A stretch of 64,000 bases of DNA from Flexibacter flexilis DSM 6793 (GTDB lineage: Bacteria > Bacteroidota > Bacteroidia > Cytophagales > Flexibacteraceae), in contig NZ_FOLE01000013.1 of the NCBI RefSeq assembly GCF_900112255.1, forward strand, positions 1-64,000, given 5' to 3'. Position 1 is the first letter of the stretch. Every line of letters starts with the position of its first letter. Shown one piece after another: positions 12,584 to 46,574 of this stretch. A program made the position numbers and the translations under genes. Below the pieces are notes generated by a model. The model had not been told where the DNA came from, made no database searches, and saw nothing but the letters and a program-made list of their open reading frames with translations.

Positions 12584-12604
12584 TAGAAAAACATTATTGA
12601 AAAT

Positions 12605-20864: not shown

Positions 20865-20921
20865 AATCCCCTCCGTCCCCAATCTATTCCAAATCGGAAC
20901 AAAATGGGGACGGAGGGGATT
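20865..20921. repeat. Long perfect hairpin at the 3' end of the HTH gene
   Basis: AATCCCCTCCGTCCCCA (20865-20881) is the perfect reverse complement of 20905-20921, a 17-bp stem with a nested TTCC/GGAA. It sits immediately downstream of the minus-strand HTH gene and between convergent operons. There is no long T run on either side, so it could be an atypical bidirectional terminator or a mobile-element end. Confidence 0.7.
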
Positions 20922-20922
20922 G

Positions 20923-21243
20923 CTATTTTCTTGCGGAAAGCCTATGGTTAGCATAGCTTTCTACACTGGCTAACTTACTGCCATTCATATAATTGAGGAG
21001 TTCGCTACGCTTGCAAAACAATCGCTTTCCTACCTTGTAAAACGTGAATGGTGACTGCCGACTGCATGAATACTTGTATAAAGTGCTTTTGGAGATGCCT
21101 AACAGTTGGGCAGCATCGGCCAACTGCATAAAATCACTTTCGGCGGGTGGCACCACTTTTTCAGCTCGCCAATCCTGTAAAGCACTGACCATTCCTTTGA
21201 GTTCTTCCAACTCTTTCAATATTGTTGCAAAGGGATTTTCCAT
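20923..21243 (-). CDS. Excisionase/MerR-like helix-turn-helix protein
   Basis: A 106-aa protein with an N-terminal helical segment and then FMQLADAAQLLGISKSTLYK (about residues 39-58), the winged-helix pattern of excisionase-family HTH proteins common in Bacteroidota mobile elements. The following FYKVGKRLFCKRSELLNYM fits the wing and last helix. It stops in TAG. It lies downstream of two membrane or coiled-coil genes on the same strand and may be a recombination directionality factor or a local regulator. Confidence 0.7.
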   Translation of the reverse strand: MENPFATILKELEELKGMVSALQDWRAEKVVPPAESDFMQLADAAQLLGISKSTLYKYSCSRQSPFTFYKVGKRLFCKRSELLNYMNGSKLASVESYANHRLSARK

Positions 21244-21244
21244 T

Positions 21245-21616
21245 TTAATTAGGGGTGTTTCGTTTTAAAAATTCATTCATGCGCCGCTGCGCTTCTTCTT
21301 TTTCGGCTGCGGCTTTGGCCTCCAACGAAGCCTTATTAAGTTTGAGCAATTGTTGATTGACCTCTACCTCCTGACGGGCTTTTTGCAGTTCATCAAAGGC
21401 TGCTCTTGGATTCATGGCCTCTGTTTCTTGGTTTGGGAGAGGCAACTCTGTTGTTGTGCTGGTAACAGAAGCCTCCCCGAATCTTGCTTCTTTGTTGATA
21501 GGAGGAAGGTAGTTGGACTTTTTAAACATACTCAGCGATACAATAAGCATGAGTACACCGCCAACTATCAACCACATTGTCGTATTTTCACCCAACAACT
21601 CATCAGGCATACTCAT
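21245..21616 (-). CDS. Small single-TM protein with charged helix
   Basis: I start at the ATG at 21616 (123 aa); the frame is open further upstream but there overlaps the preceding gene. One membrane segment (about residues 12-32) is followed by a Pro/Thr-rich linker and a Glu/Ala/Lys-rich helix. It overlaps the end of the DUF4407-like gene by 14 bases and ends one base before the HTH gene's ATG region, so the three genes form an operon. Function unknown. Confidence 0.6.
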   Translation of the reverse strand: MSMPDELLGENTTMWLIVGGVLMLIVSLSMFKKSNYLPPINKEARFGEASVTSTTTELPLPNQETEAMNPRAAFDELQKARQEVEVNQQLLKLNKASLEAKAAAEKEEAQRRMNEFLKRNTPN

Positions 21617-22697
21617 GCTCTTTGGGTTGTTTACCAAGATTGACAAAATCACTGCTAATTTGCTGACGTATCATGTTTGACTCCACCAAACGATAGGCCA
21701 AATCCTGCCGAATCGCTCCGCTATTAGGGCTCGGATTGACCATCTCATCTAATATGGTATTGACCAAATTATTACGAATTTCAACGTTTTTTTGTGCTTG
21801 CAATTGGTTGCTCTTGGCCAAATCCGTATAATCAGTTTTAATAATCATTTTGAGAATAAGGACAGCACTTTCAAAGAAAACCGAGAAGGCAATGACAATT
21901 TTACCCCAGAGGTCGAAGGCGATTTTGTGATATTCGTCGGCCTTATCTTTAGCTTTTTCTAAGGCAGCACTTTGCTCCACCGCCGAATAATGAGGCGTAG
22001 AACTCAACTCAAGAATATCTTGCTTGGCTACGGCCGTGACACTATCCCGCTTAAAACCTGTTTCAGTAGAAGACAATCGCCCTTCTATATCTTGGATTTT
22101 TTGCTCACACAGCGCAATATCATTTTTGATGATGCCCGCAAGTTTACCATCTCCTTCATTTCCACTAACCTTTTGGCTGAAAGAAACACCGCCAATTTCT
22201 TGGGCAAGTTTACTTTCTAAATCAGCTTTTTGGTGTCTCAATTGCGTTAGCTCATCTTGCAGTTCCTTTTTGCTGGCCAAATAATTCCCCACTGCGTTGG
22301 TCATGGGTTCGATGGTTTCAAGTCGTTTTTGCTGGTAATTTTCCTCAATGGTTTGCGTAATTTCTTTGCCGTACACAATGTATTCGTTCACCGTGTGGAG
22401 CATATAGGTTGAACCAAAGACGAAAATTAGCCTAAAAATCATACCCTTATTACTTGCACTGGCATACATGATGCGTTCGACTTGCAACATAATGCCCCCA
22501 TAAATCAAGAACATCAAGACGGCAAGAAGGTAGCTATTGGATACCGTCCAAATCAAATAAGCCATATTAAGAGCTGAGAGTACAATAACGAGCCAGACAC
22601 ATAGTCCTACGGCGCGTTGCGTCATGCGAGAATGATTTGTGCATTGGGATAATAACACTTCATCAGAAAAAGAAGCATACTCTAACATATTTCCCAT
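21603..22697 (-). CDS. DUF4407-like membrane protein with coiled coil
   Basis: A 364-aa protein. Four hydrophobic segments (about residues 28-48, 52-72, 90-108 and 262-285) surround a long Glu/Gln/Lys coiled-coil region (about 120-250). The arrangement of an N-terminal membrane pair, a periplasmic helix and a late membrane helix resembles DUF4407. As annotated it stops at a TGA (21603-21605) next to a second TGA. If TGA were glycine here the frame would run on to a TAA at 21522-21524, deep inside the next gene; the overlapping start of that gene argues for a stop. Confidence 0.6.
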   Translation of the reverse strand: MGNMLEYASFSDEVLLSQCTNHSRMTQRAVGLCVWLVIVLSALNMAYLIWTVSNSYLLAVLMFLIYGGIMLQVERIMYASASNKGMIFRLIFVFGSTYMLHTVNEYIVYGKEITQTIEENYQQKRLETIEPMTNAVGNYLASKKELQDELTQLRHQKADLESKLAQEIGGVSFSQKVSGNEGDGKLAGIIKNDIALCEQKIQDIEGRLSSTETGFKRDSVTAVAKQDILELSSTPHYSAVEQSAALEKAKDKADEYHKIAFDLWGKIVIAFSVFFESAVLILKMIIKTDYTDLAKSNQLQAQKNVEIRNNLVNTILDEMVNPSPNSGAIRQDLAYRLVESNMIRQQISSDFVNLGKQPKEHEYA

Positions 22698-23135
22698 TTT
22701 TGTATCATTTTTAGTTTTAACAATTGATTAAATAATGAATTACTAAAAAAGACGGCACAACCAGTTTTATCGACACACTTACATTTTCCGCTAAAAAGTC
22801 TTGCAATTGCCAGACAAATCCGTATAGATTTTACTGAACAAATCGTTCAACTTCCAAATTTAACCGCGCGGGAGTTTCAGTGTGGTGCTGGCATATTTGT
22901 CAGTACCATTTTTTTGTATTCTAAATCATGGGTAGCTATGCCAATTTTTAGAAAATTCTATCTTTTGAGTACTCGTTTGATGTAGCAATAATATATAAGT
23001 CATTGATTATTGCATAAATAACGTATAACTTGCTACAATGACATGACAAAAGTCGTTATAAAAGGGAGTGTCTATTCGTATTTTCAACCTTTAATAAAAA
23101 GTTGAAAATAGTGTTTACTTTAACCTATTTGAATA
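22698..23135. other. Intergenic region with an inverted repeat before the 368-aa gene
   Basis: A 438-base divergent promoter region. TATTTTCAAC at 23079-23088 and GTTGAAAATA at 23101-23110 form a perfect 10-bp inverted repeat with a 12-base loop, 25 bases before the ATG at 23136, a plausible operator or leader hairpin. I see no other gene-like structure. Confidence 0.5.
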
Positions 23136-24242
23136 ATGAAACCATCTATTGTGCATGAATTATATTTTAAACTTAATTGCTTGCGTTCATTTCACGGAGC
23201 AAGTCAGGAGTTTAGTAAAAAGTTAGGGCTACGAATACAAGATAAAGCTTTTGCCAAAGGCTGGTTTACGCACCTACTTAATGATAAAAGTTTTTTTGAG
23301 GGTCATCGTTCTATTTATCTTCCAGAAGCACTGAGTTTGGCTGATGAACTCTTGGCCAAATACAGAAAAAAGACAGAAGATGAGGCGATTATATCGTTTA
23401 AAGTTAGCGACTTACAGGAGACAATCACGCATTTAGACCAAGAGTTTGAGAAAGGCAATGTAGATTATTCTCTTTGGTATTACGATATGCTCACGCAAAA
23501 AATACGCAGCCCTCAGGTTTTGGCTCGTAACCCAGAAGTATATAGAAATCTGCATTTTAGCATTGCTAAATGTCTGATGCAACGCGGCGAAGCGTACCGT
23601 GACTTTAAGCCACTCGAAAGTATTAATTATGTGTTAGAAATCAATCAGTATTTACCGCCCAATCCACTTCTTTATATGCGAATGCTGAATTTGAAAGGCC
23701 ATATTCATCGACAACATTCGCCTATTAAAATAGCGATTGATTATTATGATACACTTTCTAAAGAAGCCAATTTTTTTTCTTTGGGAACACAAAAGTCTTA
23801 TTGGAATGCGTTACTTGAGCATCAATTAGCGATTACATTAGCTCATAATAAATCATATTTAAAGCAAAAAGACATATCACTCAAAGCGTTGGAATTATTA
23901 TCAAAAAGTAATCAATATTTTGATGACAATACAGATGAAAAATGGTCTTTATTTACCAGAATTAGAGAAGCAGAAATTCAATTATTGGTAGGAAATAAAG
24001 ATAAAGGAGGCGCATTTTTGGATATGTTGGAGCATCGGCCAGATTTATTGATGAGGCTTCCTTTATCGCACCAATCTATTTATTTGAGAGCAAATACTCT
24101 TCGTTATGCCGTAACTGAAAATAAAGAAAATGCACTTAAATATTTATCTTCTGTACAGGAATTTAATCAAAAACATCAGTATTTGGGACAGTTAAATTTG
24201 ATAGAAAAATATAAAAATGAACTTTTAAACCAATTAAAATAA
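23136..24242 (+). CDS. Unknown protein, probably helical repeats
   Basis: A 368-aa protein with no in-frame TGA, ending in TAA. It has no signal peptide or membrane segment. The body is built of amphipathic helices with aromatic spacing (for example ALLEHQLAITLAHNKSYL at about 228-245), suggesting TPR-like repeats. It is 67 bases upstream of the adenine methylase gene, on the same strand, and may be co-transcribed with it. Its function is not recognisable. Confidence 0.6.
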   Translation: MKPSIVHELYFKLNCLRSFHGASQEFSKKLGLRIQDKAFAKGWFTHLLNDKSFFEGHRSIYLPEALSLADELLAKYRKKTEDEAIISFKVSDLQETITHLDQEFEKGNVDYSLWYYDMLTQKIRSPQVLARNPEVYRNLHFSIAKCLMQRGEAYRDFKPLESINYVLEINQYLPPNPLLYMRMLNLKGHIHRQHSPIKIAIDYYDTLSKEANFFSLGTQKSYWNALLEHQLAITLAHNKSYLKQKDISLKALELLSKSNQYFDDNTDEKWSLFTRIREAEIQLLVGNKDKGGAFLDMLEHRPDLLMRLPLSHQSIYLRANTLRYAVTENKENALKYLSSVQEFNQKHQYLGQLNLIEKYKNELLNQLK

Positions 24243-24309: not shown

Positions 24310-25170
24310 ATGTTAAACTGGTTTAAAAGAAAAACACCAATTAGTTACTATGGCTGAAAGCAGCAAATGGCGAATAAAATAGCCAAAGCAATCCCTGCTC
24401 ATCAACTTTATTGTGAACCCTTTTTTGGGGGTTGAGCCGTGTACTTTGCAAAGGAACCTTCAGAAATAGAGGTAATTGGGGATAAAAATGAAGTAGTGGC
24501 GAACTTCTACCAAGTGGCACAAGACGAGGATTTGTTTCCTTTGTTGCAACAGTTGGTTGTTGCCACGCCCTATGCCCGTCGCGAATGGGCAATTGCTCGC
24601 AACGTTTGGCGCAATGCCGATTGCTTTTCAGAGCTAAAGAAAGCATGGGCGTTTTGGGTTTTGAGTGCCACGTGTTTTAGTTCAAGCATTGGTAGTGGCT
24701 TTGCTTTTGACAGAAATCATAATACAGTCGCCAAACGTTTCAATAACAAAAAGAAAAACTTTGGGTCGCGAATCAAGGAACGTTTGGCGAAAACTTGTAT
24801 TGAAAACATAGGAGCTTTGGATTTGATAGCCGCCCGCGACACAGAAAATGCCTTCTTTTATATCGACCCGCCTTATATATCTGAGCGTATGGGCAGCAAA
24901 TCAGGCAAAAATAAAGTTGACCAAGGCCATTATTCTGGCTACACGGTACAGGATTATGACGATTTACTGACGCTATTGGGTGGGCTGAAAGGCAAATTTA
25001 TTCTGTCCAATTACCCTTCAGATTTGCTGGATAAACACGTGCAGGCCAACGGACGAAAAGTGCGAAGCGAAACCAAGGCATTACAAGCAGGCTCTAAGGT
25101 AAAAGGCAAAGTATCGAGCTTGAAAACGGAGGTATTGGTGGCCAATTTTGATTTAGTTGTAGAAGTATAA
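24310..25170 (+). CDS. DNA adenine methylase (Dam/D12 class), with two TGA=Gly codons
   Basis: Read from ATG 24310 with TGA as glycine, this is a complete 286-aa D12-class adenine-N6 methylase. The SAM motif FFGGGAVYF has its third glycine encoded by TGA at 24433-24435, and the N-terminal YYGGKQQM motif has a TGA glycine at 24355-24357. The catalytic DPPY is in FFYIDPPYIS (about residues 186-195). Under the standard code only a fragment from 24439 would remain, lacking the SAM site. Stop is TAA. It neighbours a serine recombinase and is probably an orphan methylase of a mobile element. Confidence 0.85.
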
Positions 25171-25174
25171 TCTA

Positions 25175-25270
25175 ATGAATAACCGTATTTTGCAAGACCC
25201 CGAAAGCAGCTCGTTAGTAGCTTTACGAATCCAACTTTGTATTGAAATAATCGGGAGTTCGCTAATGTAA
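25175..25270 (+). CDS. Possible 31-aa ORF between methylase and recombinase
   Basis: ATG 25175 to TAA 25268-25270, starting 4 bases after the methylase stop and followed by a terminator hairpin. It could be a real small protein or the leader of the downstream gene. There is no homology or motif to support it. Confidence 0.25.
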   Translation: MNNRILQDPESSSLVALRIQLCIEIIGSSLM

Positions 25271-25318
25271 AAGAAAGTGATTTTGCTCTTGCGCTGACAA
25301 AGCAATTGGATATAATTG

Positions 25319-25339
25319 GGCGGTGAAAGCCGCCTTTTT
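25319..25339 (+). terminator. Rho-independent terminator after the methylase
   Basis: GGCGG (25319-25323) pairs with CCGCC (25330-25334) and is followed by TTTTT. It separates the methylase transcript from the recombinase. Confidence 0.65.
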
Positions 25340-25362
25340 CTTTATCTTTTTTTCTGATTTTC

Positions 25363-27033
25363 ATGGTTAATGTAGTAATTTATTGTCGTGTTTCCTCTGA
25401 CCTTCAGGTACAAAATGGGGCTTGATTGGACGGCCAAGAAATAGCATGTCGTCAATTTGCACAAGCCAAAGGCTGGACGGTCATGCAGGTATTTAAGGAA
25501 GAAGGGGTTTCGGGTTGAATCCTTGAAAGGCCAGCATTATTGAATTTATACCAGTTTGTGTCTTCGTATAATGCCAAAAATCCGACCAAAATCATGTATT
25601 TTTTATGTGATGACATAGACCGTATTGCGCGTGATATAGTGGTTCACATGCAAATCAAACAAGAATTGGAGAGGTTGGGCTTGTCTTTTGTTACCGTAAA
25701 AATGACGTTTGAGAACACGGCTACGGGTAGGTTTTCGGAAGGGATTATGGCCTTACAAGCGGAATTTTTCCGCAGGCAAAACGCCGAGAGAGTTTTTTCG
25801 CGCCAACACGCCCGTTTGATGGACGGTTATTGGCCATGGTTTCCGCCATTGGGTTATCAGCAAGTCAAATCGGCTCACGGCTGAAAAATCTTGTTACCCA
25901 AAGAACCCGAAGCAAGTTTGTTAAAAGAGGGTTTAGAGGCTTATGCTTCGGGCAAAATAATATCTGTTAGAGAATTAAGAGACTTTTGGAATAAAAAGGG
26001 TTTGCGTTCTCAGACAGGCGAATCGAAGGGCTCGGCCAAAGGAATGAGCGTGAGTAATGTGGGTCGTATATTGAATCAGTTGGTATATGCGGGCTATATA
26101 GCATATCAAAAAACGACGAAAGATGCCAATGGAGCAATGCTTTGGCATTGGAATGTTCCGTTTCGTAAAGGGAAGCATGAAGGGCTTATTTCGCTGGAAA
26201 CGTATAATATTATTCAAGAGAAATTAAATAATAAAAAGCCCGTGATGGGGAATTTTTCCAGTCTTTATGATGAGCATTTTCCGTTAAAATGAATGTTAGC
26301 CGATGAGGAAGGGAATTTATTGTTTGCGGGTTGGAGCAAGGGTAGAAATCAATCTTATCCTTATTATAGGTTTAGTAGTGGCTCAGCCTATAAGGGCAAA
26401 TCCATTAGAGCGGAGAAGGTACACAAACGATTAGAGTTGTATTTTAGAGGTATTACACTCAGCCCCAAAGACAAGGAAGCCTTTAAAAAACTGCTGATAG
26501 AACACGTAAATGGACTAAAGAGCCAAGTGCATCAGAGAGATACAAGCCGTGAATTGAAGATTCAAGAGCTTGAAAAAGAATACAATAGCTTAATGGATAA
26601 GATTATTCATTATAGCAACCCGACGCTTATTCAAAAAATAGAATCGCAGTTGTCGAGTTTGGAACTGACGATACGTGGCTTAAAAGAAAGTAATGTGACT
26701 GCCTCAACCGATAAACGATTGGAGGAGGAGGTTTTGGAGGCAACGGTCAGGTTGATATTGAGTCCACGACAGGCGTGGGAACAGGCTAATCACCTTCAAA
26801 AGAAGAAATTTATTGAAATGTGGTTCAAAGAGCCGTTAAAAGTGAGCCCTGTAAAAAATGGTGTTTTGAACCGCCCACAAAGTGCTTTGCGAGAGGCGTT
26901 TCAGGTGTTTGATAATAGGAAAAATAGTCATTTGGAGATGACGGATACAGATTTGAACCACTTTTGAACGGTATTATACAGCGAAATACTGGCATGGTCG
27001 CAGTATAAGGAATGGGGTGGGGTTTCTGTGTAA
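25363..27033 (+). CDS. Large serine recombinase, with five TGA=Gly codons
   Basis: Starting at ATG 25363 and reading TGA as glycine, this gives a 556-aa large serine recombinase. The resolvase domain begins VVIYCRVSSDLQVQ, with the catalytic Ser in RVSS (about residue 10). The recombinase domain has HGGKILLPKEPEAS and FPLKGMLADEEG, and a Lys/Glu coiled coil lies at about residues 400-435. In-frame TGA codons at 25423, 25516, 25882 and 26290 fall where Gly is usual (SGG, HGG, PLKG). A fifth at 26965 extends the protein to TAA 27031-27033. Such enzymes integrate phages or mobile elements. In the standard code the gene looks like five broken fragments. Confidence 0.85.
26957..27009 (+). repeat. 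Imperfect repeat at the 3' end of the recombinase gene, copy A
   Basis: ACCACTTTTGAA (26957-26968) recurs exactly at 29831-29842. In each copy a looser similarity follows, with CGAAAT, GCAT, CAGT and TAAG in the same order. The two copies bracket the TGA=Gly ABC transporter and could be recombinase attachment sites. Confidence 0.4.
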
Positions 27034-27176
27034 AGGAGGTATAAAATTTAACACTGCCTAATCTATGACTCATTGCTATAAAATACTGCCTTAGTTTATA
27101 CTAAAAAATCAATTGAATTTTTGCAACTAAACATTATATGTGATTTGAGGATATTTATTCTTTTCTCACCTGTTTG

Positions 27177-28193
27177 ATGTATAAATCTTTTGCAAAAAAC
27201 TCAAAGGGATTGCTTTTATTTATTGCTATTTTGGTTATAGCTGGGTGTTCTTATCAGAAATCTAGTATCACTGATGTAGAAACAACTACAAAAAAAGAGA
27301 TTGTCTTAGGAGATATTGGTTGGGCTGGTCTTGCTCCTCTTTATGTCGCAAAAGAAAAAGGTCTATTTTGACCAAGTATTAGTGTTAAAATTGTAAAAAT
27401 AGGTGGTATAGGTGACGCAAGGTTAGCTATGAAAGCCTGAAATATTGATATATACCAATGAACATATGATATGTATTTAAATACTGATGGTCAAGAAGCT
27501 CCTGGTATTGGTTTTATGCTCGGAGACGAGTCAAATGGAGCAGATGGATTATTGGTTAAAAATGGAGTCAAATCTTTGGCTGATTTAAGTGGTAAAACTA
27601 TTGCCTTAGAAAAAGAAACACCGGCATACATTCTCCTCAAATACGCTGCAAAACAAAATAATATTGATTTCAAAACACTTAAAATTAAGTATATGCCAGC
27701 CGCAGATGCAGCCACTGCCTTTATTGCAGGTCAGGTTGATGCTGCTTGAACATATGAGCCATATATTACTAATTCACTCAATATAATATCAGGCGCAAAA
27801 TTACTATATAGTTCAAAAGATTTTCCTGGTCTATTTCCTGCAATCTACTTTGCAAAAAGTGAACTTTTCTCTGGGACAAATACTAATTATCTAAAAGATT
27901 TCCTTCAATGATGGGTAGCGTCACTAGATTATATAAATAATAACCCTACTGAGTCATATGAAATTATGTCAAAAGCTTTTGAGATGCCTACTGGCGATAT
28001 GCTGGACTTAAAAAAGGTCATTATATGGCATACTCTATCTGACAATAAAGACATGTTCAATAAAAACTATACTAGTAATGTATGGACTATGTACAATACT
28101 GTTGCAGATCTTATGAAAACAAATGGAGACAGCATTGCACCTAACAAATCTGTTGATGCATTGACTAATTCTATCTTAGATATGATTCCTTAG
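27177..28193 (+). CDS. NMT1/SsuA-type ABC substrate-binding lipoprotein (TGA=Gly)
   Basis: A 338-aa protein when TGA is glycine (five in-frame TGA, first at 27369-27371). The signal peptide ends in a lipobox, IAGCS. The body has the NMT1/THI5-like pattern: GLAPLYVAKEKGLF, SLADLSGKTIAL and VDAAGTYEPYI, with the Gly of the last encoded by TGA. Members bind taurine, aliphatic sulfonates, nitrate or pyrimidine precursors; the ligand cannot be read here. It stops in TAG. The permease follows in the same frame after 24 bases. Confidence 0.82.
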
Positions 28194-28217
28194 ATTAATA
28201 ATTATTCTTGTATATTT

Positions 28218-28985
28218 ATGATTATATCCTACATTTGTATAAAATATGAAAAAACACTAATGCCGTTAATAAGTATTGGCTTTGCTATACTTTTGTGGCT
28301 TGTTTTAGGAATGAGTGGTGAGCACTCATTCTTTTTCCCTTCATTTCAAAAGTTGTTTGATACCGCATTGACCATGTTTTGAGAAGGCTGATTTATGGTA
28401 GATGTCATATACTCATTTACTAGGGTTTTTATTGCATTTACTATTTCACTTACTCTTGCCTTTGTTGTTGGAGGTATATTTTATACATTTCCTTATATAC
28501 AAAAACTACTAACCCCTTACATTACATTCATGAGATATATACCAATAGAGGGGATATTACCACTAATTTTACTTTCTTTATGATTAGGAGAAAGTGCAAA
28601 AATTGGGCTACTTATTATAGGTACTTTTTTCCCTCTTTTAGGTACGATCATGAATGGACTTCATCATATTCCTTGAGAATTACAAGACCTTATAACGATT
28701 TTACACTTCTGAAAAACTAAAAGAATACTTATGTACTTCCGTTATATTTTACCGCAAGTATATGATAATGTTCGCGTACTCATAGGTCTGTGTCGATGAT
28801 ATGTTGTTTTAGCTGAAATGATCGCAGCAGAGCATGGTATTGGTTATAATATACGAATGGCTCAAAAGTATGCAAATATCCCAAAAGTGTATATTTCTAT
28901 TTTGACTATTTGAACTCTTTGATTTCTGGTAGACTATTTGATGAAACTATCGAGAAAACATATATTCCCTTACCTGTATAAGTAA
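28218..28985 (+). CDS. ABC transporter permease, BPD type (TGA=Gly)
   Basis: A 255-aa inner-membrane protein reading through eight TGA codons as glycine. Hydrophobic helices run throughout. The coupling loop is near ITILHFGKTKRILMYF, where TGA supplies the Gly, followed by ILPQVYDNVRVL. The C-terminus LTIGTLGFLVDYLM contains two TGA glycines that match the IGxLGxxxD pattern of SsuC-like permeases. Starts at 28218 and 28260 are both possible; I take the longer. It lies one base before the ATPase gene. Confidence 0.78.
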
Positions 28986-28986
28986 C

Positions 28987-29715
28987 ATGGCAAACTATAA
29001 AATAGTTGTAGAAGGCGTAAGTAAGCACTTCAAAAACACCAAGGTCTTTTCGGACATATCTTTTAACATTAAAAAGGGGGAAATATTTTGTATTCTTGGT
29101 CGTAGTGGTTGCGGTAAGACAACCTTATTAAGAATGTTTTCAGGACTAGATACAAACTATCACGGAGATATACTCATTAATTGATTGAATCCAAAAACCT
29201 ATCTCAAAGAAAACAATATTGGATTTATTACTCAAAAATATAGCAATTTCCCGCGAATGACTGTTTCTGAAAATATTATTCAAGGCACGCATTCAATAGA
29301 TAAAGATAAACTAGACGCACTACTAACACACTTTGATATGTATAACCAAAAAGATAAATATCCTGACCAACTGTCATGAGGAATGAACCAAAAGGTAGCA
29401 ATTATGAGAGCAATTATGCAAAATGCTGACATTATTTGTGCAGATGAACCATTTTGATCTCTTGATTTTGTTAATAGAACCAATGCTCAGCGTTACTTTC
29501 GTAACATCATCCATGAAAACCATAAAACTTCTATTGTCGTGACACACGATATAGACGAAGCATTAACAATTGCAGATACTATTTGTGTTATGTCTCATAA
29601 AGGAATGTCTATTATCTCTAACCCACTAGCCTGATACGATATATCCTGAGAAATAAGCGACGATAATACTCATATGCTACTTGCTAGTAAGATGGAGATT
29701 ATCAAAATGTTCTAA
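28987..29715 (+). CDS. ABC transporter ATPase (SsuB/TauB-like), TGA=Gly
   Basis: A 242-aa nucleotide-binding protein. Walker A GRSGCGKTT is at about residues 38-46. The signature LSGGMNQK has its first Gly encoded by TGA, and Walker B/D-loop ADEPFGSLD has its Gly encoded by TGA. The loop GDILINGLNPK and two further sites near the C-terminus are also TGA. The H-loop is VVTHDIDEA. Each TGA sits on a position that is glycine in the family, the cleanest evidence in the window for UGA=Gly. Stop is TAA, followed by a terminator. Confidence 0.9.
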
Positions 29716-30387: not shown

Positions 30388-30765
30388 TTAATTGCTATTT
30401 GCATTTTCTTCGAAAACAGCTTTCTTAATAGCTGCGAATTTATCTTGTACACAATCATCAATAAGTATTTCAAAAACTTCTTTGAACTTGCCTGGATGAT
30501 TTGAAAATTCTTTATTTTTAAATTTTGAATAAAATGCTTCAACTGTCTGACTATGATATAACAAATAATCATTCTCTTCATCGATTTCAAACTCAGGATT
30601 TTTAAAATCAAGATGAATATATACCTGATCGTTAAGTATCTGTTGGATTGGCTGATCTATAGAAATATTCAGTAGGTCGGCAACCCTTCTTTTTGCATTT
30701 CCTTCTCCTCTGCCAAAACAGACACCTGCTGAATCTCTGTTTGTTGAAATAAATATTTTACTCAT
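30388..30765 (-). CDS. Unknown 125-aa protein coupled to the GHKL protein
   Basis: The protein begins MSKIFISTNRDSAGVCFG and has an acidic middle (DFKNPEFEIDEENDYLL). Its ATG overlaps the TGA stop of the 1124-aa gene (ATGA at 30762-30765), so the two are translated together. No family is recognised. A partner or effector of the large upstream protein is a reasonable inference from coupling alone. Confidence 0.6.
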   Translation of the reverse strand: MSKIFISTNRDSAGVCFGRGEGNAKRRVADLLNISIDQPIQQILNDQVYIHLDFKNPEFEIDEENDYLLYHSQTVEAFYSKFKNKEFSNHPGKFKEVFEILIDDCVQDKFAAIKKAVFEENANSN

Positions 30766-34136: not shown

Positions 34137-34867
34137 TATAATATAGACATCATTTGATTATAAACTTCTTTGAATAATAAGGAGCTTGTAAAGCTATCAT
34201 CTCTATCGGAGCTATTGGCTAGATTAGTAACATTTATTTGTTTTGATATAACAGTTGGTGGTGGGGAGAAAGCAATTATTCTATCTGATAAAACAATTGT
34301 TTCTTCATAATCATGGCTAATAAAAATAGCTGTTACTTCGTTTTTTTTTATATAGTTACGCAACTTCAAAAGCAATTTATGTCGTATTGTCTTTTCAATC
34401 CCTACCATTGCTTCATCAAAGCAAAGTATGTCTGATTTTATTGCCAATCCTCTTGCTAAAGCAGTTCGTCTGGACATACCGCCAGAAAGCATACTTGGTA
34501 ACTTTTGAGAGTGATTTGACATATTAACCAACTCTAATACCTCAGCTGATGAAAGTGAGGTATTAGCAGTATTTTTTGACCAAATTTCAATATTTTCTTT
34601 TACTGAAAGCCAAGGTAGTAGGTCATTATCTTGTGGTACATAAGAAATTGGTGATTTAAATTCTGCGGCTTCTACCCCTCCAATAGTAACACTGCCACTT
34701 TTTGGAGTATTAATTCCTAAAACCAGTTTCATTATAGAACTTTTTCCACAACCCGAAGGCCCGAAAAAAGTAACTATCTCACCCTTGTTTATTGACAAGT
34801 TGAATGATTCAACTATTACATTGTTGCCAAATGCAAGGTCAATATCATTAAACTTTATTTGTTCCAT
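34136..34867 (-). CDS. ABC transporter ATPase of the NMT1/SsuA-type operon
   Basis: A 243-aa protein. Walker A GPSGCGKSS is at about residues 35-43, the Q-loop in SYVPQDNDLLPW and the signature LSGGMSRRTALARG. The Walker B region reads DILCFDEAMVGIE, so the usual DEPFxALD D-loop is altered to DEAMVGIE. The H-loop FISHDYEE is intact. Glycines use GGN codons throughout, unlike the homologous ATPase at 28987-29715. It overlaps the permease by 13 bases and ends in TAA overlapping the start of the 1124-aa gene. Confidence 0.85.
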   Translation of the reverse strand: MEQIKFNDIDLAFGNNVIVESFNLSINKGEIVTFFGPSGCGKSSIMKLVLGINTPKSGSVTIGGVEAAEFKSPISYVPQDNDLLPWLSVKENIEIWSKNTANTSLSSAEVLELVNMSNHSQKLPSMLSGGMSRRTALARGLAIKSDILCFDEAMVGIEKTIRHKLLLKLRNYIKKNEVTAIFISHDYEETIVLSDRIIAFSPPPTVISKQINVTNLANSSDRDDSFTSSLLFKEVYNQMMSIL

Positions 34868-35604
34868 GGAAATAGTTTTTTTCTCATTAAAACCAATGAC
34901 CTGTCGGTAAGAATACCAATCAAGCCGATTACAATGATGTAAGCAAATATTTTGTCTGTTGCTAAGTATCGCTGTGCTCTAATCATGGCATAGCCAATGC
35001 CGTATTCAGCTCCAACAATTTCAGCTACTATTAAATATGTCCATGCCCAGCCCAAACAAATTCTTGAATTGTCTAAGATGCTTGGGGCACTTCCTTTAGC
35101 AATTACATTCTCAATGTATTTTAGCTTCGACCATTTTAATGCAAAATTGAAAGATGAATATTTTTTTTCTATTGCAGTCGCTGAATCGTAAAACATAGGA
35201 ATCATTTGAGCAAATGTTCCTAATACAATAATAATGATTTTACTCATATCCTCAATGCCAAACCACAAAATTATGATTGGGATAAAAACTGGAACTGGCA
35301 GGTAGCGAAAGAACTCAATAAAATAAAAAATAGTATCTTTAAGTTTGTTATTTAACAAAGAAGCAAAAGAAATAGGATAGGCTATTAAAAATGAAATTAA
35401 AAAGCCTACAAAAACTCTATACCAACTGCTTAAAAGATCCTGCCAAAACTCTACTTGCTGCAACATACTCCAAAGAGAAAAAAGAGTATGTTGTGGGCTT
35501 GGCAGAAAGATTGTTTTTACTCCATAAATATTTGAGAAAAAACACCAAACCCCTACTAATATAATTAGCAGGGATAGAGGATAAATTGCGTTAGAAACCT
35601 TCAT
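34855..35604 (-). CDS. ABC transporter permease, BPD type
   Basis: A 249-aa membrane protein with five to six hydrophobic helices. It has the SsuC/TauC pattern: FLPSPQHTLFSLWSML near the N-terminus, IIILWFGIEDMSKIIII in the middle and GWAWTYLIVAEIVGAEYGIG (about residues 188-207). It ends LIGILTDRSL. It overlaps the ATPase gene and begins one base after the binding-protein stop, so the three are one operon. Confidence 0.85.
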   Translation of the reverse strand: MKVSNAIYPLSLLIILVGVWCFFSNIYGVKTIFLPSPQHTLFSLWSMLQQVEFWQDLLSSWYRVFVGFLISFLIAYPISFASLLNNKLKDTIFYFIEFFRYLPVPVFIPIIILWFGIEDMSKIIIIVLGTFAQMIPMFYDSATAIEKKYSSFNFALKWSKLKYIENVIAKGSAPSILDNSRICLGWAWTYLIVAEIVGAEYGIGYAMIRAQRYLATDKIFAYIIVIGLIGILTDRSLVLMRKKLFPWNK

Positions 35605-35605
35605 T

Positions 35606-36592
35606 CTATTTTTGTATGAGGCTGGTATTGACCATGCTTTCCGTATTTAAATCTTTATTAATAAATCCATTCTCTTTCCAGAACACATTAATATTTGAAA
35701 GTAAGTCAAATAAATTATTTGGAGTTGTCTTGTCAATTAGTTTTTTATTCAAATCTTTTGTTTGAATATCTACTACCGAAAGAATATCTCTCACATCTTG
35801 AATCTTCATCCCCATGCCTTCCGAAATTATTTTTTGAGATTCTTCTTTATGAGAATAGTAGTAGTCTGCACTTTTGAACCATGCTCTTAAAAATTTTTCA
35901 TAATGCTCTTTGTTAACCCCCATAACTTTATCTCTGTTGATAATCAAAAGCCCAGGAATAAGAGTTGGATACTTCTTGGTATCGATCAAAACATGTAATC
36001 CTTTTTCTTTTCCAGCTTGTGAAAGCCAAGGCTCGTAAGTTACAGCTGCATCCACTTGTCTTGCGATAATTGCATTACCTGCAATTTGAGGATCTGCAAC
36101 TGGTTTGAAATGCACACTTTTTAAATCAATATTATTTGCTTTCAAAATATATCTTAAAAAGAAATCGCTGGGAGATGCTTCTGCGTAAGCAATTGTTTTC
36201 CCTTTTAACTGTTGTAGGTCAGTTATAGAATCACTTGAAACTAATCCGTCACCTCCATCTGACTCGTCAGTAATTCCAATGACTTGTGCAGGGAAACCAG
36301 TTTCATTATAAATCAATAACTGGTCAAGTGTGCTGGCTACATCCACATCAATCTGCCCTGAAATCAATGATGCTCTTTTGGTATCAAAGTTTTCAATTTT
36401 CTTAATATCAATCTCAACTCCTTCTTCCTTGAAGAAACCCATTTTGTCGCCTATGTAAACCATTCCACCACCAGGCCAAGAATGTACTCCAACTGTAATC
36501 TTGTTGGTTGATGTTTTCTGCATTTTGAAATAAGCAACTGTCCCTCCAATAACCACAAATGCTGCGATTAGAATTACGATATATTTTTTCAT
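35606..36592 (-). CDS. NMT1/SsuA-type ABC substrate-binding protein
   Basis: A 328-aa protein with an uncleaved-anchor or signal segment (residues 4-22) and no lipobox Cys. It has GMVYIGDKMGFFKEEGVEID (about residues 42-61), DLQQLKGKTIAYAEA and VDAAVTYEPWLS, the NMT1/THI5-like fold. It aligns along its length with the TGA=Gly protein at 27177-28193. The ligand is unknown. It stops in TAG just before the permease. Confidence 0.82.
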   Translation of the reverse strand: MKKYIVILIAAFVVIGGTVAYFKMQKTSTNKITVGVHSWPGGGMVYIGDKMGFFKEEGVEIDIKKIENFDTKRASLISGQIDVDVASTLDQLLIYNETGFPAQVIGITDESDGGDGLVSSDSITDLQQLKGKTIAYAEASPSDFFLRYILKANNIDLKSVHFKPVADPQIAGNAIIARQVDAAVTYEPWLSQAGKEKGLHVLIDTKKYPTLIPGLLIINRDKVMGVNKEHYEKFLRAWFKSADYYYSHKEESQKIISEGMGMKIQDVRDILSVVDIQTKDLNKKLIDKTTPNNLFDLLSNINVFWKENGFINKDLNTESMVNTSLIQK

Positions 36593-39397: not shown

Positions 39398-39598
39398 TCA
39401 AGTCTTTAGCCCAAGTACAGGGGCACGCTTGAAACTAATTGCGTACTCGCTTCGGATTATTTCACTCTGTTCTCCTAATTTATAAACCGAGTGCTTGCCC
39501 ATTTTAAAACCTAATTCATCCAGAAGATAAATATATGATTTATAGTAATCATAGTCCAAAAAGTGCTTGGCAAACAAGACTTGTAATTTATCGAGCAA
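39398..39598 (-). pseudogene. Small ORF fragment, unknown
   Basis: The minus-strand frame DLLDKLQVLFAKHFLDYDYY and on to RAPVLGLKT looks protein-like for about 65 residues. It lacks an ATG: it opens at TTG and is preceded in frame by TAG. Probably the tail of a broken gene in the debris between the two modules. Confidence 0.3.
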
Positions 39599-39776
39599 AT
39601 CTTGAACTGTTTTTGGCCACTATTGCAGTCAGAACTACTCACATGGCCGCGGCATAAGGAATGTAAGAATATTTTTGTATGAATTATTTAGCTTCTTTCT
39701 TTTATATCACTACCCGCACCTACCTCAGAGAAATCCCCAACCTATCTTATTGGACAAATTGGGGAGGATATGTTGT

Positions 39777-40757: not shown

Positions 40758-41666
40758 TTACGTTCCATAGAGCCTTAGTAACTCATTTGTCCAGTGGGTG
40801 AAGTTCTCCAACATTTTGGTATTGAAAATAAGCGGCTTTGGGCTGTGTTGTGGTGTGGCAAATGTTCCAAACTTTTCTACCCAATAAGCATAGTTGGCCA
40901 GTTGTTCAGCGGAAGCGGCACAAGGGAACAAAAAGAAAATATCCTTGTCTTGTGCTAAAGCCTTATTCTTGGGATTTTGCAAAATGTCAGTGAGCCTTTC
41001 CATCGAAATACGGTTTCGTTTATAGAGTGTTTGGGCTCGTTGCACCCGTTCACTGACCGATAATTTTGCCTTTAAAATCATACGGACATAGGCACGTGCT
41101 GCCTCACTTTCTCCTCATAATTCATGGTCAGGCGCAGGTTCTGCATGGGGCATTTTCTCCATGACCATCACTTTTAAAATATCTTTTAATAACTGTTGTT
41201 GTTGGGCTTGGTTGGGGCAATATTGTAGCTCAGGCAGGAAAGATTCCTGCACCTGATAGGCAAAACCTCGTTTGCGTTTTGCTACCATTTCGGGATTATT
41301 TTCCTCTGGCCACTGCTTGGCCAAAAGGGCAAAGGTGTCCTTGGCCTTCGCCGCATTTTGCAACACCTTGTCCAAAGACGGCAAGCCAATATCATAAGTT
41401 TTGGGGCTGCGTTCTCGACCATTTTTGCTACGTTGATAGGGTTCAAATACAACTTTTCCGTCAAGCTGAATCTTGAGCGTAAAATCCGTATCAAAAAACT
41501 TTCCTGTTGCCCAAAGGCTGACTTCTTGGGACATTCGCAAGGTTAGCGGCTCGGTCTCAATCCCTGTATTGGTGGCTATCAAAGGGGCTACGAGAGGTTG
41601 CAAGGCTTTTCGATAAAAGTCTTGTGTAAAATCCTTTATTGCCTGATAAATAGTATATTGTGCCAT
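40758..41666 (-). CDS. Unknown 302-aa protein with a TGA=Gly codon
   Basis: The frame runs from ATG 41666 to TAA 40758-40760, crossing one TGA at 41115-41117 (HEL-G-GESEAARAY). Both halves are in the same frame and read as continuous protein, so I treat it as one gene. The N-terminal half has a basic/aromatic part (TYDIGLPSLDKVLQNAA), and the C-terminal half is helical (LSVSERVQRAQTLYKRNR). No family is recognised. It lies in a minus-strand group with the 717-aa gene and the 103-aa gene. Confidence 0.65.
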
Positions 41667-41695
41667 AAAGTAAGGTGCCTGAAAAGGATAAAGAA

Positions 41696-43849
41696 TTAAC
41701 TAACAGGGGCAAGAGCATCAAGTTTGGCATCAAGTTCTTGGTCTAAATCCTGTTGTTTTTGAGCCTCATAAAAGGCTTGTACTTTGGGCGGTCGGAAGTA
41801 ATAATCATGCTCCGTAATGGGTACATTGCTGCTAACTTTTTGCAATCGCTCGTGATAATGGGTTACATCTTCGTTTCTAAGAGTCAGTTTTCCGTTCATC
41901 AAATGGCCAGTGGCGAACATTTCCATAAACTCAGTTTGTGCGCCTAATTGGGTGCTTGCCAGCGTTGGTACTTTGTAAGAGTCTGCGGGTCAGGCTACCA
42001 CATCTTGTTTGAAATCGCCCTGCAAACGTGTAAAATACTTGGAAAACAAAGGGTCTTTTACTGCCCTTTTTTTATTCAAATCACTTTCTTTGAGTTGTTT
42101 GAGTTGGTCTTGTGCTTCTGCAATTTTAGTGCGACTCCTGACACTCAAAAGCGGATTGGCAAACACACGCATATAATCAATTGCAGCCCTTTCTTCGGGT
42201 ATACTTCCCGTCAAAACCTGTGGATTTTCGCGGTCTCGGTGTTTGAGTTGATTTCCAAAATCATAATTGGCCGCTACCTTTTCCACTTGAATTTGCTTCT
42301 GAACAAACTCGTTTAACACACTGGCATTAAACGTGGGCAATTGTTGAGTAAGTTCTTGGGTTTTTTGTCGGTATAAGTCTTGATAAAGCGTTTGGGCAAG
42401 TGCGACAATATCTTCGGGTTTAGATAATTCTTTGTTTTTAATCTCTTGCTGAAGGGATTGACTGTATTGTTTATTAAAATCTTTAGATTGTATAATTTGC
42501 TGAAATTCATTGAGTTTGGGGGTGGCATAAGGCAATGGACGATAGCCTGAAGTTAAAGTTCCAGTCAAGTCATCGTATTGTAATAAATCGGGAAACATCG
42601 CTGCTCCATCAGGCTTAAACACTAAAGAACTTTGTATAGAATCGAACTGCAAAGGGATTTCGACTTGTCCGTTTGGGTCTGCCTGAAGATTTTTAAGGAC
42701 AAATGCGCTGCTGTGATTGAGTTGAGCATTATTGCGCATTCCGTCGGCAATGGTACGAACAAACCCCGCCGTTGGCAACACATTGAGTATTTGGTGCATA
42801 CTGCCTTTAATCGCGTCAAGGGTTTCTGGGTCTAACAGTGGTTTTTGGTCTTGGGTTTGGGCTTCTTTTAAAGAATCTAATTGTTGATTAAATGCCTCTT
42901 GATGAGTACTTTGTGTGGGGATATGGGTATTTTGTTGCAAAGCGGCAACCATGGCGGCAGGCTGCTGCAATAGGTCGGTGGCCGATGCGCTGTTGCTGAG
43001 TTTTCTGGCAGTTTCTCTGGCGAGTGCATCGGGCTTTTTCAGTTCAATTTTGGGCAAAGTATAAGCCTGAGCCAACTGATTATAACTTTGCGAAAGGGAG
43101 TGAATACTTTCTCGGTTTTGTGCCATAAAATCAGCCACTTCAGGTTGTTCTTGTTGTGTTTGCAACTGTTGCAACAAATAAGAGGCTTTGAGTATAAGCA
43201 TTTGTTTGTCAGGACTATCTTTGAATGTTTCCGTGATTTGTGGGAATTGGGTTTGCGCTGTTGTGAGGTCAAAATCAGCTAAAAGATTAGCCATCATTGG
43301 CTGACTTGATAATTGGTTCAGTTGGTCGGCTATTTCTGCCAAAGCAGCATCTCTAAGGGCAAGATTTTCTGCGTTTTGTGCTTTATTTTGTGCGTCTTGC
43401 CTGTCATTTTCACTGATTACCTGTTTTTCTGCGGATATTTCATTTTGATTGTTTATTTCTCTTTTGTCATTTTCATATTGCAAGAGCAAGGAACTTTTAA
43501 TAGCTGCCCCCAAATCGGATTGTGCATCAGGCAAAGGGCTTGGTAAAAAATGGGCAGCAATAACGGCTTGTAAGGTTTTGAACATAGCCGTTTGGTTCAA
43601 ATCAGGAATTTTATCCGCGTCTAAAAATTGTAATAATGCTTGCGCTTGTTGTTTTTCGCTGGGGTCTGCAAACTGCTCTTGAAGGTTTTGACTGACCAAA
43701 ATATCAGTCTTTGGCAGATGCTGTTCTAGACTGTCTTGCGGAATAATTCAGGTTTCTAATCCCATTACGATATTGGCAGTAAGTGAAACATTATCAGTAT
43801 ATTGACCGCTTGGTAGAATACAAAATAAGGAGATGGCTAACAAGCACAT
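41696..43849 (-). CDS. Large secreted helical protein with two TGA=Gly codons
   Basis: Read from ATG 43849 to TAA 41696-41698 with TGA at 43748-43750 and 41990-41992 as glycine, this is a 717-aa protein. The N-terminus MCLLAISLFCILPSG is a signal peptide. The body is Gln/Ala/Leu/Asp-rich and helical (for example NQNEISAEKQVISENDRQ). The segment after the second TGA (PADSYKVPTLASTQLGAQ) continues smoothly. It is co-directional with the 302-aa gene; both may be surface or transfer-apparatus components. No domain is recognised. Confidence 0.65.
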
Positions 43850-43890
43850 CTCCTTGACATTTACGGTGTTTGGTTTCTGGTGAGAATATT

Positions 43891-44256: not shown

Positions 44257-44401
44257 TTTTTTGTGAAGTTGATAAATTGAGTATGAACCAAGTAATGCAA
44301 ATACATTCAACTTCCTTTTGAATTATTTGCAATGTTTATAATGATTTTTGATAAAATATCAAGTGCAAATTGCAAAAAAGTAGTGATTATCAACTATCAA
44401 A

Positions 44402-44443: not shown

Positions 44444-44494
44444 TGTTTTTATGAAAAAAAACGATTATTTTTAAGTCAAAATATCATCAAAACT

Positions 44495-44851
44495 ATGCAG
44501 AAAGTAGGCGAAAGAATCAGAAAGTTACGCGAACTTCGTAATTATACACAAGAATATATTGCAGATAAATTAGAAATCAGTCAGCAACAGTATTCTAATA
44601 TAGAAAAGGGATTATTTGACATTTCCTTAAAGAAATTATATAAAATTTCTGAAGTTTTGGAAGTTTCTCCTGCTACTATTTTGGAATTTGACGCACAAGT
44701 TATTTTCAATAACTATGCAGAGAAATCTCATCAAAATAATAAACCTATTTACTATTCAATTGATGAAAAAATAGAAAATCTTTATAAAGATAAAATTAAA
44801 TTGCTTGAAGAAAAGATATTGTGGTTAGAAAAGCAAAATAAGGGACAATAA
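44495..44851 (+). CDS. XRE-family transcriptional regulator
   Basis: A 118-aa protein with a classic helix-turn-helix: GERIRKLRELRNYTQEYIADKL (about residues 4-25) is interrupted by the recognition helix QQQYSNIEKG. It ends in a coiled-coil C-terminus. It has a pair of palindromes immediately upstream, so it probably represses its own promoter and the divergent minus-strand operon. It is 10 bases upstream of the conjugation ATPase. Confidence 0.8.
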   Translation: MQKVGERIRKLRELRNYTQEYIADKLEISQQQYSNIEKGLFDISLKKLYKISEVLEVSPATILEFDAQVIFNNYAEKSHQNNKPIYYSIDEKIENLYKDKIKLLEEKILWLEKQNKGQ

Positions 44852-44861: not shown

Positions 44862-46574
44862 ATGGTTACTCGGTCGGATATTTTGGCGATTACCTATCGA
44901 GTATCGCAGCTTCCTGATAGCGATGCTGCCACTACTTTGCCCATTGGGCAAACCATTCCTGCGGAGTTTTTTGAAGTTATCCAAACTGCTTTTCTGTTGC
45001 ATACCCAAAGCATTGATAAACAGTTATCTAATAAGAATATCAGCACCACAAAACGCTATCAGCTGCTTGCATACAGGGGTTTTAATTATCAAGAATTTTT
45101 GACATTATGGGATAAATCTATTCCTGTGGAAAACACCAAACTTCACCCTATTTTTGAGGTTTTGATGTTGGCTACACAAGCCCAACGAAAAGCGTTTATC
45201 TCTTCTTATCAACCTGATGAAATTTCCTACATTCAAGCACTTATTCAGCTCCATTCGCCGATTATTCCCCTCTTTTTTTATCCTTTGCCTGCTCGTTTGT
45301 TAGTAGGCAATTTAATGAAACATACCTATATTTCTGGACAAAGTGGTTCGGGTAAATCCGAAATAATGAAGCTGATTTGGTACGGATTACAAACAAAAAG
45401 CAGCGGAAAAGAAAACGGAAAATATAGTTTGGTTTTTATTGACCCACACGGTGATATTTCTCGTGAATTATTGGCACTACATTTGAATTTAGAAGAAAAA
45501 GAAAGGCTTATTTTTTTTGACCCTTTTTTGAGTAATGATAAATTTCCTGTATTAAATCCCTTAGAAACCAATAATAAAAGTCTTTCTTTTGTCGATACTT
45601 TGGCGCAAAGTATTAGTAGTGCTTTACAGGAACTTTGGCCTTCTGCCGAAATGACTTTGCAAATGCAAACGCTTTTAATTCCTTGCATTGCAACTCTTTT
45701 ATTAGACGAAAATAGAAGCCTGAAAGACCTACAAAATTTCATGCAAAATGACCCTGCTTTGTTGGCCTTAGGCAAACAAAGTCCCTTTCCCGCGCATCGC
45801 CAATTCTTTGAAACGGCCTTTTTGAACAAAAGTTATGAGCATACCAAAGCAGGGATTTATACCAGAATCCAATCTTTGCTCAATAACGCGGGATTTTATC
45901 GCGCTACCACAGGCCGCAGTACGGTTCATCTGGAAAAAGCCATCAATGAAGGGAAAATAATCATTGTGCGTTTTACCAAAGACAAGGGCGAGGAGGCCAG
46001 TCGTGCTTTCAATAAACTGCTGATTGCCAGACTTCAAAGCATTGTGCTGAGTAGATCCGACCAAGTCAAAGAACAGAGAAAATCGTGTTTTCTATTCATT
46101 GATGAGTTCCAAAATTACCTGAGTCCGAGTATTGGGCTGATTTTGGAAGAAAGCAGAAAGTTTGGGTTGCATTTAGTGATTGCCAACCAAAATTTAGGAC
46201 AAATCAGTGATACCAGACTTTTGCGCACCATTTTATCCAACACGTTTACCAAGATAGTGGGGGCAAACGGATTTAAGGATTTAAAGGATTTTTCTGCTGA
46301 AATTGGGGTGAAAGTAACGCAGTTACAGCAATTGCCGCCATACAAATTTTATTGTAAGTCAGGTACTAACCCCGCTTTTGTGTTTGACCCTGCGGCCTTT
46401 TTGGTCGGTCATCAACCACCGTTCTTTTTGGACAAAAAACAGACGACTCAACTCAAAGAATACTTGGTTCATCAATCGGGGCAATACCAAAAACAAGAAG
46501 AAGTGGAGCGTTCCAAGGCAGCTGCGCCAAACACGCCTCCCAAGAAAAAATTAGAACCTAAATACAAATTTTAG
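44862..46574 (+). CDS. HerA/TraD-like conjugation coupling ATPase
   Basis: A 570-aa P-loop ATPase. Walker A GQSGSGKSE is at about residues 160-168. FIDPHGD follows, Walker B is in SCFLFIDEFQNYL (about 406-418), and the sensor ESRKFGLHLVIANQNLGQI follows. This is the DUF87/TraG-TraD group of coupling proteins that pump DNA in conjugation or plasmid partition. It has no in-frame TGA and stops in TAG. The next gene is a replication-relaxation protein, a frequent partner. Confidence 0.75.
   Translation: MVTRSDILAITYRVSQLPDSDAATTLPIGQTIPAEFFEVIQTAFLLHTQSIDKQLSNKNISTTKRYQLLAYRGFNYQEFLTLWDKSIPVENTKLHPIFEVLMLATQAQRKAFISSYQPDEISYIQALIQLHSPIIPLFFYPLPARLLVGNLMKHTYISGQSGSGKSEIMKLIWYGLQTKSSGKENGKYSLVFIDPHGDISRELLALHLNLEEKERLIFFDPFLSNDKFPVLNPLETNNKSLSFVDTLAQSISSALQELWPSAEMTLQMQTLLIPCIATLLLDENRSLKDLQNFMQNDPALLALGKQSPFPAHRQFFETAFLNKSYEHTKAGIYTRIQSLLNNAGFYRATTGRSTVHLEKAINEGKIIIVRFTKDKGEEASRAFNKLLIARLQSIVLSRSDQVKEQRKSCFLFIDEFQNYLSPSIGLILEESRKFGLHLVIANQNLGQISDTRLLRTILSNTFTKIVGANGFKDLKDFSAEIGVKVTQLQQLPPYKFYCKSGTNPAFVFDPAAFLVGHQPPFFLDKKQTTQLKEYLVHQSGQYQKQEEVERSKAAAPNTPPKKKLEPKYKF

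Follow-up and report, generated by a model that had tools for sequence, protein, structure and literature searches.

In the accessible text of PMC10746230, Patescibacteria of the lineages Absconditabacteria and Gracilibacteria are described as having both phages that use genetic code 25, in which UGA encodes glycine, and 'code 11-compatible' phages. Recoded phages of standard-code hosts are described as well, with TAG read as glutamine or TGA as tryptophan (PMC10746230 and PMC9523058, in the portions available). The window analysed here, a 64-kb stretch of the Flexibacter flexilis contig NZ_FOLE01000013.1 (contig C13 of the genome labelled G000), holds an integrated mobile element with part of its genes written with UGA as glycine, within a chromosome that uses the standard code. 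No report of such genes on mobile elements in standard-code chromosomes was found among the titles and abstract openings of open PMC papers, a search that could miss a preprint or subscription paper.

Open reading frames (ORFs) of the window were re-derived under translation tables 25 and 11, and the translations matched to Pfam families. Between 24310 and 29715 on the forward strand, five ORFs remain open up to a TAA or TAG under table 25, while under table 11 each is broken, as the initial annotation had proposed; all five translations match their families. They encode a D12-class adenine-N6 DNA methyltransferase (MTase; 24310..25170; MethyltransfD12, 1e-20), with TGA at residues 16 and 42; a large serine recombinase with Resolvase and Recombinase domains (25363..27033; Resolvase, 9e-24), with five TGA; and, as cargo, the components of an ATP-binding cassette (ABC) transporter. 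The latter are an NMT1/SsuA-like substrate-binding protein (27138..28193; NMT1, 7e-14) with six TGA, or five if the Met at 27177 is the start, a permease (28218..28985; BPD_transp_1, 3e-13) with eight and an ATPase (28987..29715; ABC_tran, 6e-33) with five. Two genes beyond those of the initial annotation, both on the reverse strand, also require TGA as sense. One encodes a 302-aa element protein (40758..41666) with a single TGA, opposite TTT in an intact 301-aa homologue on contig C20; the other encodes a 717-aa element protein (41696..43849) with two TGA, as has its C20 homologue. One TGA codon is common to the 717-aa pair, while a window TGA stands opposite GGC and a C20 TGA opposite CCA.

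Alignments support the reading of these codons as glycine well beyond chance. At E ≤ 1e-40 the MTase had matches in 22 of 291 genomes, and an alignment was made of 20 fetched loci, the window's own included, together with two further F. flexilis copies on contigs C14 and C5. The TGA codons of the window MTase fall on columns with glycine in 21 of 21 and 15 of 20 sequences. The MTase of G105, a genome of the same order and another family, has two TGA, one on the 15/20 column and the other on a column with glycine in 21 of 21, and a TGA at residue 130 of the C5 copy is opposite 13 glycines of 21. The TGA codons of the ATPase include those for the glycine of ILING, the glycine of PFGSLD and the first of the two in LSGGM, and the Pfam score is highest when TGA is read as glycine. 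The initial annotation had placed the TGA codons of the methylase and ATPase (LSGGM, DEPFGSLD and ILING) on family glycines, and these placements are confirmed. When the UGA-coded ABC set is aligned with standard-coded paralogues in the same window, glycine stands at 6 of 16 aligned TGA, against 24 of 46 GGN codons. For an HpaII-type restriction-modification pair on contig C23, also UGA-coded, glycine gives the best score of five residues (260.3), with alanine almost equal (259.8).

A pooled count over five families comprised 140 TGA codons, of which 134 have an aligned sense residue and the other six were dropped. The share of glycine at TGA columns is 0.43, compared with a background of 0.044; glycine is the only one of the 20 residues to be enriched, and it is the majority residue at 76 of the 134 codons. 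As a control, the TrwB-like ATPase of the element and its relatives has a glycine share of 0.56 at TGA columns and 0.49 at GGN columns, the corresponding values for the Replic_Relax-like protein being 0.35 and 0.41. TGG has kept its meaning, as had been claimed, with tryptophan the commonest residue at TGG columns. Translation of TGA as tryptophan was ruled out: the tryptophan share at TGA columns is 0 in the TrwB and Replic_Relax families, tryptophan is not enriched over the five families (0.9x), and profile scores are lower.

The full UGA-coded set contains 37 genes, with 14,475 codons, 221 TGA and no internal TAA or TAG, an absence that is partly by construction because the ORFs were called to the next TAA or TAG. 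(This set corresponds to a 39-row list minus the two TGA-free window genes and G105 212133, plus the ColB Rep3 gene.) Counting read-through in the TrwB matches of the carrier genomes gives 52 TGA and a single TAG, whose coordinates identify it as the final stop of the Pseudoalteromonas rubra ORF itself. Chance open frames were ruled out by these read-through counts and by full-length family coverage. The number of window ORFs that become longer when one stop codon is treated as sense (TGA 8, TAA 9, TAG 1) is by itself not decisive; the family matches and glycine columns are.

Not every codon conforms, and the following weigh against a clean glycine reading. The TGA at residue 224 of the C14 and C5 MTases is opposite serine, glutamate and alanine (one glycine of 20), that of the MTase in genome G283 is opposite no glycine, and the MTase matches of two other genomes hold one TAA and one TAG. 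The permease scores slightly higher with serine (52.2) than with glycine (50.6), tryptophan giving no hit. Glycine is the majority at just 8 of 25 recombinase TGA and 21 of 45 Replic_Relax TGA, with recombinase codons opposite valine and tryptophan, and others, in the 302- and 717-aa proteins, opposite proline and phenylalanine.

The host genome (4.25 Mb in 48 contigs, 99.84% complete) does not share this code. Its prfB gene, encoding release factor 2 (RF2), reaches 487 bits where the cut-off is 370, has the GGQ and SPF motifs and carries the AGGAGGTATCTTTGAC frameshift site, as does the RF2 gene of G105; the UGA at this site controls RF2 synthesis. None of the 46 host tRNAs matched by Rfam has a UCA anticodon (150 of 288 first-look candidates scored). 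Neighbouring genes in the window end in TGA, for example 8259-11480 and 11477-12583, the start of the next gene overlapping the end of the first of these. In ten 20-kb stretches outside the window (200 kb), 135 ORFs of at least 150 aa end in TAA 109 times, TAG 14 times and TGA 12 times, with seven of the 12 TGA in one prophage-like stretch. No convincing case of sense TGA was found in these 200 kb; three ORFs that are longer under code 25 (one in L102 and two in L103) appear by eye to be upstream extensions or a low-complexity frame. TGA is also rare as a stop in sampled ORFs of G105 (2 of 48). Code 25 as a property of the source genome, with a UCA tRNA-Gly and without RF2, was therefore not borne out, because RF2 is intact and no such tRNA was found, while the genes themselves do follow it. 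With RF2 intact, no UCA tRNA found and no convincing sense TGA in the sample elsewhere, the code-25 reading thus belongs to the mobile element and its cargo.

Several parts of the element recur elsewhere in the F. flexilis genome. The two further MTase copies lie at contig ends and are 92% identical to that of the window in amino acids and 78-79% in nucleotides, with gap-free coding sequences. The copies differ in their TGA sites (16 and 42 in the window, 130 in C5, 224 in C14 and C5), a TGA in one standing where another has GGN, and the ratio of nonsynonymous to synonymous substitution (omega) over the three is 0.03. Upstream of the MTase, a stretch of ordinary-code genes (20873..24242) has about 74% of its nucleotides in common with the C5 copy, and the window from 39822 to 46650 is 74% identical to C20. 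The 3' end of the recombinase is found on C23 and C20 as well, with two TGA in each. It is duplicated around cargo, both on C23 (L060, 590-692 and 2606-2708) and in the window, where a partial copy (39575..39663, forward strand; 79-80% to C23 and C20) lies on the far side of the cargo; because of this duplication, cargo is suggested to enter at the recombinase 3' end. On C23 the UGA-coded HpaII-type pair (L060:5971-7959) has 11 and 10 TGA, matches PF00145 at 3e-84 and PF09561 at 4e-77, and the HpaII match covers the whole profile (1-359 of 359). The same contig has an array of 21-base tandem repeats (L060:8508-8979).

The core of the window element consists of an XRE-type helix-turn-helix regulator (44495..44851), a TrwB/VirD4-like ATPase (44862..46574) and a Replic_Relax-like protein (46589..47407), all on the forward strand, the last with a Pfam match slightly below the curated cut-off. 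Among PHROGs, TrwB additionally has a match to a terminase (2e-6). Neither the TrwB nor the Replic_Relax gene has a TGA in the window, compared with up to 16 (TrwB) and up to 10 (Replic_Relax) in relatives. The TrwB-like matches of F. flexilis on C20 (L061:78-1784), C13 (44862-46574) and C27 (L207:3452-4393, partial) are all free of TGA, whereas the gammaproteobacterial relatives contain it. No relaxase was found among the window-element proteins scanned; a serine recombinase and the TrwB-like ATPase are present. An ArdC-type antirestriction protein (48334..49233, reverse strand) is probably part of the element. The cargo includes a second, paralogous ABC ATPase, permease and binding protein in the ordinary code (34139..36592, reverse strand), 29-32% identical to the UGA-coded set, and adjoining it is a gene for a 1124-aa protein (30762-34136, reverse strand) without a match in Pfam or PADLOC. 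The recognised recoded genes of the window and of its relatives are TrwB-like, Replic_Relax-like, recombinases, Rep_3, MTases, HpaII and ABC; proteins of 302, 558 and 717 aa match no Pfam family.

Elements of the same arrangement occur in other standard-code bacteria. On contig C11 of G105, TGA is found in the recombinase (six), an 822-aa protein (four), the MTase (two), the TrwB-like ATPase (four) and the Replic_Relax-like protein (four). A scan of genome contigs with the TrwB alignment returned 22 loci. Among these, TrwB and Replic_Relax contain 16 and 10 TGA in P. rubra S2471, seven and six in Motiliproteus sp. MSK22-1, and eight and four in both Colwellia sp. 1_MG-2023 and Colwellia MAG-91; contigs of metagenome-assembled genomes (MAGs) also hold this pair with in-frame TGA. 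The islands of P. rubra and Colwellia MAG-91 adjoin groEL. Further UGA-coded island genes encode an initiator of the Rep_3 type, recombinases of both the tyrosine and the serine kind and proteins without a recognised family. Genes in the ordinary code are found beside them: an Arm-DNA-bind_3 integrase in the P. rubra, Colwellia MAG-91 and Motiliproteus islands, VirD4 (PF02534) in P. rubra and locus L208, and a MobA/VirD2-like relaxase (PF03432) in Motiliproteus and L208. The Pfam search with the P. rubra relaxase homologue gave no hit, and the Colwellia relaxase and VirD4 are named from resemblance only. Both codes are found within a single Motiliproteus island, in which the relaxase gene terminates in TGA and a recombinase reads through 12. 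Besides the window's genome, RF2 scores above the family cut-off in seven of eight carriers, the eighth, a MAG, having weaker matches only. In plasmid and phage collections, the MTase, recombinase, TrwB and Rep_3 had no close relatives, only distant ones; the Replic_Relax-like protein had one distant match and the 558-aa protein none.

In a TrwB tree of 22 rows (the L118, L120 and L123 pieces being partial matches), nine of the ten UGA-bearing sequences group on a single branch supported at 100/100, and seven of the nine carry the label Pseudomonadota. The tenth, from G105, lies apart, beside a TGA-free copy of the same genome, so that the UGA label needs two changes on this tree. The two Colwellia islands have a common backbone order, and their TrwB and Replic_Relax genes align without gaps. 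Between them, four UGA-coded genes have diverged by 0.26-0.62 synonymous substitutions per site (dS) at an omega of 0.09-0.16, with 19 TGA in common and two TGA/GGN swaps. The linked ordinary-code relaxase and VirD4 genes have dS of 0.38 and 0.56 and omega of 0.10 and 0.06; two short ordinary genes diverged more (dS 0.92 and 1.19, omega 0.20 and 0.12). This shows that the UGA-coded genes are under purifying selection similar to that on the linked relaxase and VirD4 genes.

The explanation we prefer, at a probability of about 0.5, is a mobile element whose UGA-coded genes are silent in a standard host and active in a code-25 partner cell. We infer both the silence and the activity, as neither a decoder nor a code-25 carrier was found. 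The UGA-coded genes would be off in the standard host and on in a cell with a tRNA-Gly(UCA) and without RF2, such that UGA would passively sense which code the cell uses. The integrase, relaxase and VirD4, in the ordinary code, would serve the standard host, while the replication initiator, recombinases, TrwB, Replic_Relax and the restriction and transport cargo would serve the code-25 cell, the likely candidate for which is an Absconditabacteria or Gracilibacteria epibiont or predator of the host. Reading in a code-25 cell is preferred because RF2 should block any useful product at 5-16 UGA, and yet selection acts on these genes. The available parts of two papers describe suitable contacts: Absconditicoccaceae live as epibionts on Gammaproteobacteria and have a phage with a tRNA-Gly(TCA) of its own (PMC13059738); a code-25 Gracilibacterium increased along with Colwellia and shows traces of gene exchange (PMC6851277). 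The more general proposal, which we put at somewhat below even odds, is of a class of dual-code elements that would commute between standard bacteria and code-25 Patescibacteria epibionts, with UGA as code sensor and a gene set and cargo for each cell type, the window having one ABC transporter in each code.

Other observations are less easily accommodated by a life in two codes. No code-25 carrier was found, none of the 22 loci being named as Patescibacteria (no direct comparison with Patescibacteria genomes was made), and viral contigs gave no match to the query alignments A4 and A6; single distant matches there with A7, the MTase and a tyrosine recombinase had no TGA in the matched stretches. 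Ordinary island ORFs end in TGA in 9 of 47 cases (four islands), against 20 of 99 in the flanks, and genes stopped in this way would be misread in a code-25 cell. The window core genes for TrwB and Replic_Relax have no TGA, as if partly adapted to the standard code, and most UGA-coded core genes have a GC content near that of the standard host rather than one low value.

The main rival has the standard host itself translating the UGA-coded genes, by an unrecognised, conditional or oddly shaped tRNA or by a helper element, much as recoded phages use suppressor tRNAs for late genes. That the selection on these genes resembles that on the linked relaxase and VirD4, that core-gene GC is close to the host's, and that the UGA clade is deep and met here in standard-code hosts only, all speak for it, and the few TGA stops of the F. 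flexilis sample (12/135), like those of G105, would make a UGA suppressor cheaper. However, an intact RF2 would be in competition at every UGA, of which a gene may have up to 16, and no UCA tRNA was found in the islands, in the window's genome or in the other carrier genomes as far as these were searched with ARAGORN, Rfam, an anticodon/T-arm pattern and a tRNA-Gly model. ARAGORN detected no tRNA in the window, C20, C23 or the P. rubra, Motiliproteus and Colwellia island stretches and no UCA anticodon in the other loci, permissive settings yielding noise only, and the Rfam search of the island stretches contained no UCA tRNA. The tRNAs that are present are ordinary ones: four at 166.8-167.3 kb of the G105 contig and a tRNA-Asn in L125. 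The pattern gave four hits in G000 against one in the control; in eight other genomes there were 42 hits and 64 control hits. Of these 46 hits, 34 were read and none was a tRNA; a candidate beside RF2 was rejected on inspection. With the tRNA-Gly model, none of the 30 loci read among the matches listed had UCA, and the matches listed fall outside the islands. We regard a hidden decoder as unlikely, at little better than one chance in four. Two odd tRNA-like sequences were observed in F. flexilis, at C8:193443 (L056:94-169) and C14:16982 (L044:983-1056), the latter near a tRNA-Met. In both, a short hairpin with a 4-base loop, differing between the two in both strands of its stem, replaces the anticodon arm, and neither has UCA.

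Less probable again is that code-25 genes passed recently, and in one direction only, from epibionts into standard-code chromosomes, dead on arrival and with decay yet to come. The composition of the cargo would fit such an origin, the ABC operon having a GC content of 0.32-0.33 and the HpaII pair one of 0.31-0.32, with TGA making up 21-50% of their glycine codons; so would rarity, since the Replic_Relax model, with up to six candidates scored per genome, matched 1 of 394 genomes in the Colwellia order and 1 of 395 in the window's class, in each case the starting genome. Recency is difficult to reconcile with the Colwellia islands, which have diverged by dS 0.26-0.62 at an omega of about 0.1 with their backbone order kept, with three MTase copies that differ in their TGA codons at an omega of 0.03, or with nine UGA-bearing TrwB in one deep clade. 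Pseudogenes or sequencing and assembly artefacts are highly improbable. In their favour, the standard code breaks every one of these genes, the carriers include several draft assemblies or MAGs, and two MTase matches hold a TAA or TAG; against them, TGA placement is glycine-specific, family matches are full-length, the read-through TrwB matches have 52 TGA against no internal TAG or TAA, and the P. rubra, Motiliproteus and Colwellia islands lie on contigs of 113-396 kb, those of P. rubra and MAG-91 beside groEL. That the entire source genome uses code 25, for which only the island genes and scarce TGA stops speak, is practically negligible in view of an RF2 with its UGA frameshift site, overlapping TGA-ended genes, the lack of a UCA tRNA and no convincing sense TGA elsewhere.

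Elsewhere in the window, defence genes of a Ssp/Pbe phosphorothioation type (SspB, SspC, SspD, DndB-like, SspA and PbeA) occupy 7370-17706 and are followed by a weaker LmuB/PbeC-like match (17948-20122). The stretch 50844-58645, near the far end, encodes a helicase of the SNF2 type as well as a type IIG restriction enzyme-methyltransferase.

A difference in genetic code is commonly regarded as a barrier to gene exchange, and here two codes travel in one element with both under selection. This implies either a still undiscovered way of reading UGA as glycine in an ordinary bacterium, or movement of mobile DNA between epibionts and hosts across codes. Standard annotation would probably label such genes as pseudogenes, and the class may be under-counted for this reason.

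Integrative and mobilisable elements include a class with an Arm-DNA-bind_3 tyrosine integrase, a MobA/VirD2-like relaxase and a VirD4 coupling protein. The gammaproteobacterial islands match this class by their ordinary-code integrase, relaxase (PF03432) and VirD4 (PF02534), and are unlike its usual members in that the remaining backbone genes use UGA for glycine. This last property they share with the code-25 phages and prophages of Absconditabacteria and Gracilibacteria (PMC10746230, PMC13059738). In the accessible text of these papers, however, such phages live in code-25 hosts and one has a tRNA-Gly(TCA), whereas the element described here lies in an RF2-bearing standard chromosome and a search of it revealed no tRNA. 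Recoded phages of standard-code hosts, as far as the available text describes them, resemble it in having a code unlike the host's and in combining recoded and ordinary genes; they differ in that UGA means glycine here, the genes that could be recognised are of a mobilisation kind and a suppressor tRNA was not found on the element. The code 'locking' of recoded laboratory strains (PMC12269064, in the part accessible) is alike in the idea that a gene works only under the right code, and unlike this element in being engineered and in using sense codons.

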